Part shown: one piece after another, positions 42,303 to 44,823 of the stretch | Position numbering within the stretch: position 1 is the first letter of the stretch | Layout of the letters: each line of letters opens with the position of its first letter | DNA from: an uncultured Planctomycetota bacterium | GTDB lineage: Bacteria; Planctomycetota; UBA1135; GCA-002686595 | DNA length: 64,000 nucleotides | Assembly (NCBI GenBank): GCA_903928115.1 | Contig: CAIYPP010000054.1 | Location: 1-64,000, forward strand | Reading direction: 5' to 3' | Made by a program: the position numbers and the translations under genes | The notes under the pieces: generated by a model | Database searches by the model: none | Told to the model about the DNA's origin: nothing | What the model saw: the letters and a program-made list of their open reading frames with translations, nothing else

Positions 42303-42638
42303 TCACGAGCCGAGCATGCGGCCGAGGCGGCGGCCTCCGACGACGTGCAGATGGAGGTGTTCGACCTCCTGTCCGCCGTCGCGGCGCGCGTTCGTGATCA
42401 CGCGGAAGCCGCGCGCGAGCGAGCGCAGTCGCGCGACCTCCGCCGCGGCGAAGAGGAGCTCTCCGGCGAGCGTCTTGTCGTCGAGCTCGAAGAGCGAGTC
42501 GACGTGGCGCTTGGGGACCACGAGCACGTGGACCGGGGCCTGCGGGTGGATGTCCTCGAAGGCGAGCACGTGCTCGCTCTCGAACACCCGGCGAGCCGGG
42601 GCCTCCCCGGCGACGATGCGGCAGAAGATGCACTCCAT
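42303..42638 (-). CDS. HIT-family (HinT-like) nucleotide hydrolase
   Basis: This 111-residue protein begins ECIFCRIVAGEAPA and carries the histidine triad HLHLHVVGG near its end, as in HinT purine nucleoside phosphoramidases. The CxxC near the N-terminus is a common zinc pair. It probably cleaves AMP-lysine or similar phosphoramidates in the cytosol. It precedes murA on the same strand with 127 bases between them. Confidence 0.94.
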   Translation of the reverse strand: MECIFCRIVAGEAPARRVFESEHVLAFEDIHPQAPVHVLVVPKRHVDSLFELDDKTLAGELLFAAAEVARLRSLARGFRVITNARRDGGQEVEHLHLHVVGGRRLGRMLGS

Positions 42639-42700: not shown

Positions 42701-42730
42701 TTGACGCCCTGCGGCGCCCATCGGTATCCT
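42701..42730 (+). promoter_or_regulatory. Candidate promoter for the TPR/alpha-CTD gene and ruvA
   Basis: TTGACG (42701-42706) and TATCCT (42725-42730) are 18 bases apart. Transcription would start near 42737, leaving an unusually long leader of about 150 bases before ATG 42888. Confidence 0.5.
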
Positions 42731-42887: not shown

Positions 42888-44234
42888 ATGACCTCCAGCA
42901 CTGTCGAGATGTCGGCCACCCCCGAGGCCTTCGACCTCAAGAGCGCCTCGATCCCCAACTTCACGACCCTGGTGCAAGCGCGCGCGACGGTCTTCAAGAG
43001 CCGCGGTGCCCTCGAGGCCTTCGCGCGCATGGTCGACGGGCTCTCGAGCTCCGGTGAAGAAGGCCGCCGCAAGGGCCTCGGCCTGTGGATGGTCGCGCGC
43101 TACGAGGCGTGCGCCGCGCAGCTCTCGGGCTACGAGAAGACCGACGTGGTCGCGGCGTTCACGCGCGGCAGCGCGCTGATGTCGATCGGCCGCTGGGCCG
43201 ACGCGCTCGCGATCTTCGAGCGCCTCTCGTCGCAGTACCCCGAGGAGCCGCGCCCGCGCGGCAACAAGATCGAGGCCCAGCTCGAGATCGACCTCGCCAA
43301 GGGCGATCACGACGGCGCGCTCGCCCGCGCCCAGCAGGAGCTCGACCACGCGCCGGCGTCCTTCGCCGCGAGCGCCGAGCACAGCTACCTGAAGGGCCGC
43401 GTCGCCGAGCTGCGCCGCTCGCCCGAAGCCGCGCTCGACCTCTACGCCGCCGCGCGTGAGATCGACCCGACCCACCGCACGAACCTCGCGCGCTTCGCGG
43501 GCCTCGCCGAGCGCTGCGGCCTCGACGAGCTCGCACTGCAGGCTTACCAGTCGCTCGCGTCGATGCTGCCGATCGACCGCAACGTGATGTTCAACCTCGG
43601 CGTCCTCTACGAGGACCTCGGCCGCGATCAAGAGGCCGCCGCCTGCTACGACGTGATCGCGCGCAACGACCCGACCAACCGCCGCGCGCGGCTGTACTTG
43701 GAAGACGCCCGCTCGGGCATCGACATGTACTACGACGAGGATCTCGAGCGGAAGGAAGACCGCCTGAACCAGATCCTCAAGACGCCGATCACCGACTTCG
43801 AGCTCTCGGTGCGCGCGCGCAACTGCCTCAACAAGATGAACATCGTGACGCTCGGCGACCTCGTGCGCCTGTCCGAGCAAGAGCTGCTCTCCTACAAGAA
43901 CTTCGGCGAGACCTCGCTGAACGAGATCAAGGAGATCCTCGGCCAGAAGGGCCTGCGCCTCGGCATGAAGCACGAGGAGGCCGTGGCCTCGATCGAGGCT
44001 GCCGCTCGCCCACGCGCCGGGACGGAGACCTCCGAGGTCCTGAACACGCCGGTCAGCAAGCTCGACCTCTCGATCCGCGTCCGCCGCGCCGTCGAGAACT
44101 TGGCCTGCCTCACCTTGGGCGACATCCTTGCGCACAGCGAGGAAGAGCTGCTCTCGATGCCCAACTTCGGCCAGACTTCGCTGATCGAGCTCAAGCGCAA
44201 GATCGGCGAGTTCGGTCTGTCGCTGAAGAAGTAG
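42888..44234 (+). CDS. TPR protein with two tandem RNA polymerase alpha C-terminal domains
   Basis: This 448-residue protein has an N-terminal helical/TPR half (about residues 40-285, e.g. IGRWADALAIFERLSSQYPE, YLKGRVAELRRSPEAALDLY, FNLGVLYEDLGRDQEAAACY) and two copies of the RNA polymerase alpha-CTD fold. Domain 1 (about 292-360) has FELSVRARNCLNKMNI and NFGETSLNEIKEIL. The residues equivalent to E. coli Arg265, Asn268 and Cys269 are Arg309, Asn312 and Cys313, and Gly296, Ser299 and Glu302 equivalents are also kept. Domain 2 (about 382-448) keeps Arg397 but replaces the Asn and Cys with Arg and Ala. It is not RpoA itself because the N-terminal assembly domain is missing. A role binding DNA or transcription factors is inferred. 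ruvA follows after 10 bases. Confidence 0.85.
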   Translation: MTSSTVEMSATPEAFDLKSASIPNFTTLVQARATVFKSRGALEAFARMVDGLSSSGEEGRRKGLGLWMVARYEACAAQLSGYEKTDVVAAFTRGSALMSIGRWADALAIFERLSSQYPEEPRPRGNKIEAQLEIDLAKGDHDGALARAQQELDHAPASFAASAEHSYLKGRVAELRRSPEAALDLYAAAREIDPTHRTNLARFAGLAERCGLDELALQAYQSLASMLPIDRNVMFNLGVLYEDLGRDQEAAACYDVIARNDPTNRRARLYLEDARSGIDMYYDEDLERKEDRLNQILKTPITDFELSVRARNCLNKMNIVTLGDLVRLSEQELLSYKNFGETSLNEIKEILGQKGLRLGMKHEEAVASIEAAARPRAGTETSEVLNTPVSKLDLSIRVRRAVENLACLTLGDILAHSEEELLSMPNFGQTSLIELKRKIGEFGLSLKK

Positions 44235-44244
44235 TCCGCACGCC

Positions 44245-44823
44245 GTGTACGACTTCCTCGATGGCGAGGTCGCGGGCCGCTCGGCGGCGCGGCTGGTCCT
44301 CGACGTGCGCGGCGTGGGCTACGAAGTGCTCGTGCCTCCGGGCGCGAGCTTCCCCACTCAGGGCCGACTGCGGCTGTGGACGCACCTCGTCGTGCGCGAG
44401 GACAGCCACGCGCTCTACGGGTTCCGCGACGAGGCGACGCGCGACATGTTCCGCGCGCTGCTCGGAGTCACGGGCGTCGGCCCCAAGGTCGCGATGGCGG
44501 TGCTCTCCGGGCTCTCGTCGGACGAGCTCGTCGCCGCACTCGTCGCCGGTGATGCCAAGCGGCTCACCAAGGTGAAGGGCGTCGGTCAGAAGACCGCGGA
44601 GCAGATCCTGCTCGACCTGCGTGGCAAGGCCGCCGCACTCGCTCCGGCGGGCGCGAACGCGGCGCCCTCCGCCCGCGGACCGGCGCAGCTCGAAGACGCG
44701 GTCACGGCGCTCATCTCGATCGGCTACTCCGAGAAGGACGCGCGTCGCCAAGTCGAGCGCGCGTCGAAAACCGTCGATCCGGCGAACCTCGAGCTGCTCG
44801 TCCGCACCGCGCTGCAGGGCTGA
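44245..44823 (+). CDS. ruvA: Holliday junction DNA helicase subunit RuvA
   Basis: This 192-residue protein binds Holliday junctions as a tetramer and loads RuvB. The OB-fold N-terminus (YDFLDGEVAGRSAARLVLDV) is followed by two helix-hairpin-helix motifs (LLGVTGVGPKVAMAVL, LTKVKGVGQKTAEQILLDL) and the C-terminal RuvB-contact domain (AVTALISIGYSEKDARRQV). The GTG start lies 10 bases after the TPR/alpha-CTD gene, so they are probably one transcript. ruvB and ruvC are not in the window. Confidence 0.96.
   Translation: MYDFLDGEVAGRSAARLVLDVRGVGYEVLVPPGASFPTQGRLRLWTHLVVREDSHALYGFRDEATRDMFRALLGVTGVGPKVAMAVLSGLSSDELVAALVAGDAKRLTKVKGVGQKTAEQILLDLRGKAAALAPAGANAAPSARGPAQLEDAVTALISIGYSEKDARRQVERASKTVDPANLELLVRTALQG

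Follow-up and report, generated by a model that had tools for sequence, protein, structure and literature searches.

What does a protein do that joins TPR repeats to two alpha-CTDs of RNA polymerase and lacks the alpha assembly domain? Such a protein is encoded in the window, by which we mean the whole 64,000-nucleotide stretch of planctomycete DNA that was analysed, and a first-pass annotation made from the sequence had described it in these terms and proposed a regulatory role for it. We followed up this description by profile searches, structure prediction, alignment of relatives and surveys of other genomes.

Domains and predicted fold

The profile searches bear out the proposed architecture. 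The 448-aa protein matches RNA_pol_A_CTD (PF03118) in two stretches (E 7.2e-36, 122 bits in Pfam, cut-off 23.8) and, in a scan of the genome, each of the two domains (CTD1 and CTD2, Table 1) exceeds this cut-off alone. Several TPR models also score above their Pfam cut-offs (TPR_16, 49.1 bits vs 32.7; TPR_2, 41.4 vs 27). A profile search found no match to the alpha N-terminal assembly domain in the protein, and the RpoA equivalog models match only its CTD part, with scores far below their cut-offs. The one further alpha-CTD of the genome, detected in the same scan, is the end of a separate, ordinary RpoA of 331 aa. In family f61, shortened members of 312-340 aa have shrunk to about three TPRs, the helix and both CTDs; as a natural minimal version, they mark the core of the family.

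Table 1. Positions of the gene, its domains and its surroundings in the window, and of two shortened relatives in other loci
Feature	Position	Strand	Description and evidence
HIT-domain protein, divergent	42303..42638	-	bounds the upstream intergenic region; PF01230, E 9e-24
Promoter-like site	42701..42730	+	TTGACG-18-TATCCT; sole site found
TPR / twin alpha-CTD gene	42888..44234	+	448 aa, ATG start; TPR repeats, helix, CTD1, CTD2
TPR solenoid	42960..43673	+	residues 25-262; Pfam TPR models, helical pairs in AlphaFold model
Helix between TPRs and CTD1	43674..43781	+	residues 263-298; AlphaFold model helix 265-297
CTD1	43782..43970	+	residues 299-361; PF03118 82.7 bits, residue table, fold match
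CTD2	44043..44228	+	residues 386-447; PF03118 50.6 bits, residue table
ruvA	44245..44823	+	TIGR00084, E 2.1e-54; start 10 bases past the TPR-CTD stop codon
Shortened member, 340 aa	L257:1482-2501	-	about three TPRs, helix, both CTDs
Shortened member, 312 aa	L258:2009-2944	+	about three TPRs, helix, both CTDs

An AlphaFold model of the full protein, built with 41 family members (mean pLDDT 90), predicts a TPR solenoid, one unbroken helix, CTD1, a flexible stretch (residues 375-380, pLDDT <50) and CTD2. A fold search with this model returned mostly TPR proteins and was little informative. For a model of the CTD tandem alone (pLDDT 81), the top PDB match was 9zum, the Caulobacter alpha-CTD on A/T-rich DNA (51% identity, rmsd 0.7-0.9 Å over ~68 residues), followed by E. 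coli alpha-CTD structures including 3n97, in which the alpha-CTD is seen with sigma region 4 and UP DNA. Generic helix-hairpin-helix domains, the outcome that the first-pass annotation had set against its own assignment, are rejected by these matches and, by profile and predicted fold, both C-terminal domains are genuine RNA polymerase alpha-CTDs.

Residues and spacing of the two CTDs

The alpha-CTD binds DNA through residues 265, 268, 269, 296, 299 and 302 and touches sigma region 4 through 259/261. Arg309, Asn312 and Cys313 of CTD1, previously pointed out as retained contact residues, do align with E. coli Arg265, Asn268 and Cys269, and the domain keeps the full DNA-contact set. The same residues recur almost without exception in 41 relatives (R265 in 41, N268 in 40, C269 in 40, G296 in 41, S299 in 41, E302 in 40), as do the acidic sigma-contact positions, 259 being acidic in all (D 37, E 4) and E261 present in 39. 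On the other side of this contact, the housekeeping sigma of the source genome keeps K593, R596, R599 and R603. CTD1 also has fixed letters of its own, namely Phe260 (40 of 41), Met273 (39) and Glu297 (39); position 297 is Lys or Arg in 18 of 21 RpoA sequences, in contrast to the Glu of CTD1. Judging from the alignment, two of these fixed residues, Glu297 and Met273, suggest an additional contact of CTD1 that is missing from the RpoA CTD; Glu297 is next to the loop that contacts DNA and might even make CTD1 bind DNA less well.

CTD2 had been said to have lost two of the contacts, and the equivalents of Asn268 and Cys269 are indeed changed: the domain carries Arg, Arg and Ala at the equivalents of 265, 268 and 269 (the first being Arg397), and among the DNA-contact positions only 265, 296, 299 and 302 are kept. 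Since R265 and E302 are found in 41/41 relatives, and Arg or Lys in 34/41 both at 268 and at 315, CTD2 has not simply decayed, and the replacement of Asn268 by Arg/Lys looks, at the level of sequence, more like a change of mode than decay.

Conservation is distributed unevenly along the protein. Mean pairwise identity, calculated over the same eight genomes, is 78% for CTD1, 59% for the RpoA CTD, 52% for CTD2 and 28% for TPR residues 81-262. The segment from the TPRs to CTD1 is 36 residues long, without gaps, in 41/41 relatives, while the tether between CTD1 and CTD2 varies from 22 to 49 residues among them; CTD1 thus keeps a constant spacing from the TPR scaffold, which CTD2 does not. The RpoA linker is likewise variable in length.

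A tree of CTD1, CTD2 and RpoA CTDs, from which five Verrucomicrobiota rows apparently read in the wrong orientation were disregarded, separates the three sets, its 69 columns being too few to place their origin. Descent from a copy of rpoA that kept its linker and gained a new N-terminus was considered because of a weak phmmer extension into the linker, and was rejected, as a profile comparison aligned convincingly only the CTD.

Distribution, gene order and other alpha-CTD proteins

Relatives were found in 235 of 246 Planctomycetota genomes (E <= 1e-15), and in 131 of the 133 that are >=90% complete and <=5% contaminated. A second search, made in the phylum of a Candidatus Brocadiaceae MAG with up to 5 candidates scored per genome, was positive at E <= 1e-35 in 278 of 294 genomes, with one match each except in one genome. 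It overlaps the first, the loci lying on equal contigs at positions within a few bases (e.g. C9:167512 vs C9:167506), which places the window in Planctomycetota, and is the positive control for the searches outside the phylum, which used the same query and threshold. By table count, 118 of 149 genomes of the phylum contain exactly three alpha-CTDs, the number that one RpoA plus one tandem protein would give. The family is, then, a near-universal single-copy core protein of Planctomycetota. Within family f35, genomes G031 and G075 are without the protein and G093 has it, a pattern that lineage loss or incomplete assembly may explain.

The TPR-CTD-CTD arrangement might be confined to this phylum, as the first-pass annotation had asked, and for the groups tested the answer supports it. 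At E <= 1e-35 the family was detected in 0 of 289 genomes of the phylum of an Akkermansia MAG (up to 6 candidates scored per genome), 0 of 68 of that of a Hydrogenedentes MAG (up to 25) and 0 of 151 of that of Longilinea (up to 11); with only these candidates scored, the absence is strong and not absolute. Among 50 named genomes (Verrucomicrobiota, Chloroflexota, Armatimonadota, the Hydrogenedentes MAG and others), the sole full-length match was Candidatus Brocadiaceae, the rest being RpoA CTDs and unrelated TPR proteins. Plasmid and phage collections gave RpoA-type CTD matches only, and no full-length family member.

The claim that a good promoter and a long leader precede the gene is reasonable. 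The promoter-like site of Table 1 is unique (0.0 expected in shuffles), similar sites lie upstream in 5/7 genomes of the same family, window included, and the site is followed by a leader of ~150 bases; Rfam gave no match in the leader and gene region. Downstream, the short gap to ruvA agrees with the coupling that had been proposed in the window, and the two genes probably share a transcript. Across relatives this adjacency is common and not universal: of 40 loci from 24 families, 26 have ruvA near the gene, and in 22 of these it follows immediately on the same strand; at a further 8 loci the gene that follows is spoIID or tgt. The long order of TPR-CTD gene, ruvA, ruvB, queH, spoIID and tgt is present at two loci, L052 and L072, with yajC also in L052. 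Gene order was taken from tblastn, automatic ORF calling around these loci being noisy at high G+C. The gene heads an old housekeeping block (ruvA-ruvB-queH-spoIID-tgt-yajC), which tells little about function.

The closest relative in kind is the RpoA alpha-CTD itself, which CTD1 resembles in sequence, predicted fold and DNA- and sigma-contact residues. The TPR protein differs from it in having two tandem copies, no alpha assembly domain, a fixed helix to the TPRs and CTD1-specific letters at 260, 273 and 297. An alpha-CTD-like domain outside RNA polymerase has been described in BREX PglW (PMC12839542), the nearest described re-use, where, as here, it is a module of a larger protein; PglW and similar proteins, however, have defence or accessory functions and carry kinase or nuclease domains, whereas the TPR protein is encoded by a core gene present in one copy and combines its alpha-CTDs with TPRs only. 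Neither the Ser/Thr kinase nor the NERD domain of PglW was found by Pfam in the 448-aa protein, and the PglW model NF033442 matches only its CTD region (37 bits vs a cut-off of 990). A TPR chaperone is reported to be linked to an alpha-CTD interaction in SicA-InvF of Salmonella (PMC10761746); this resembles our case in the association of a TPR protein with alpha-CTD contact, and differs in that separate proteins of another lineage are involved and the TPR chain, as described there, has no alpha-CTD.

Other alpha-CTD proteins were seen in planctomycete genomes. Two of them combine alpha-CTDs with sigma-70 region 4 and HARE-HTH, with three alpha-CTDs in a 795-aa protein (L248:2674-5058, +) and two in a 686-aa protein (L249:2083-4140, +), and would, by their sequences, be several promoter-reading parts in one chain. 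A DUF1016 / YhcG PDDEXK nuclease has a C-terminal alpha-CTD (L253:1816-3153, -). Two proteins of ~1,420-1,450 aa carry an alpha-CTD; one (L247:1485-5738, -) also has NERD and Ser/Thr kinase, like BREX PglW, and the other (L256:1466-5815, +) resembles it by its ends. Small free-standing alpha-CTD proteins of 113-141 aa occur in a few genomes (L246:1547-1951, -; L252:1445-1783, -; L254:480-857, +; L255:570-992, +).

Possible roles of the protein

Our preferred reading, to which we give a probability of roughly 0.45, is that this core single-copy protein is a transcription factor of Planctomycetota acting as a stand-alone alpha-CTD in trans, with the TPRs docking a partner. CTD1, set at its fixed distance from the TPR scaffold by the one long helix, would bind upstream of promoters, in the minor groove of A/T-rich DNA, and could contact sigma region 4 or activators, like the alpha-CTD of the polymerase itself. 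CTD2, on its flexible tether, may provide a second, more basic contact to DNA or to a partner nearby, and the TPR half would dock another protein, the outcome being that RNA polymerase, or a regulator, is recruited or stabilised at some promoters. The analysis shows the domains, their predicted fold, conservation, distribution and gene order; we infer that the protein binds DNA and is linked to sigma and RNA polymerase, as well as the direction of the effect, the TPR partner and a regulatory role of the kind first suggested, by promoter bridging or by competition with RNA polymerase. The reading rests on the two strong PF03118 matches, the fold matches to 9zum and 3n97, the contact residues kept in CTD1 and in sigma, the higher conservation of CTD1 than of the RpoA CTD and the near-universal single copy. 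Against it stand the fixed changes of CTD1 that the RpoA CTD does not share (Glu for Lys at 297, Met273) and the neighbouring genes, which are for repair, tRNA modification and secretion, none for transcription. Also, alpha-CTDs occur in proteins that may well work without RNA polymerase; with nuclease, kinase, and sigma region 4 plus HARE-HTH proteins all carrying them in the phylum, an alpha-CTD by itself is no proof of a role with the polymerase.

Three rival explanations were considered. The alpha-CTDs could be minor-groove binders only, in a DNA-binding or chromosome-maintenance protein that works with RuvAB or other DNA-repair enzymes and not with RNA polymerase, as the ruvA gene directly downstream in 22 of 40 loci, the nuclease and kinase proteins with alpha-CTDs and the basic residues gained in CTD2 would fit. 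We consider this unlikely, because the link to ruvA is not kept in at least 8 loci, where the gene stays with spoIID or tgt, and CTD1 retains acidic sigma-contact residues unneeded for DNA binding alone. If instead the protein tied transcription to, for example, the Tgt/YajC-Sec block encoded alongside, as an adaptor whose CTDs bind proteins and not DNA, the altered surface of CTD1 (Glu297, Met273) and the proximity of spoIID, tgt or yajC in several families would be accounted for, and TPRs are docking scaffolds; yet the complete DNA-contact set of CTD1 would be needless in a pure adaptor, and we hold this to be quite improbable. Free alpha-CTDs without the assembly domain cannot join the polymerase core, which, together with the contact surfaces kept, is consistent with a decoy or anti-activator. 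By keeping activators, sigma or UP elements from RNA polymerase, it would make selected promoters less active, and a ligand of the TPRs might control it. A positive core role, however, better fits a universal single copy and the finding that CTD1 is conserved more strongly than the CTD of RpoA, and a decoy does not require a fixed helix to the TPRs, so that we give it just as little credit as the adaptor.

In a genome-wide essentiality screen of Planctopirus limnophila, 108 phylum-specific proteins whose function is unknown were counted as essential, and the passages of the paper that we consulted do not name the family (PMC10632474). In the open literature (subscription papers fell mostly outside the scope) neither a TPR protein with alpha-CTDs nor this planctomycete family was found described. 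Each domain is a known one that automatic annotation can recognise; the combination of TPRs with twin alpha-CTDs is apparently undescribed. To our knowledge, transcription in Planctomycetota has been little studied, and P. limnophila is genetically tractable. Being near-universal in the phylum, and not found in the other groups or papers searched, the protein suggests an unrecognised core transcription factor of Planctomycetota. The stronger proposal, that part of promoter recognition in these bacteria is run by a phylum-defining two-alpha-CTD protein in trans, an extra scaffolded module of RNA polymerase absent from the other bacteria studied, we regard as rather doubtful. A phylum-wide single-copy protein whose alpha-CTD is under tighter constraint than that of the polymerase itself points to a component of the basic machinery for transcription (or DNA handling) in Planctomycetota that has gone unrecognised, and would show that the alpha-CTD is separable from RNA polymerase and can be retained as an independent core factor.
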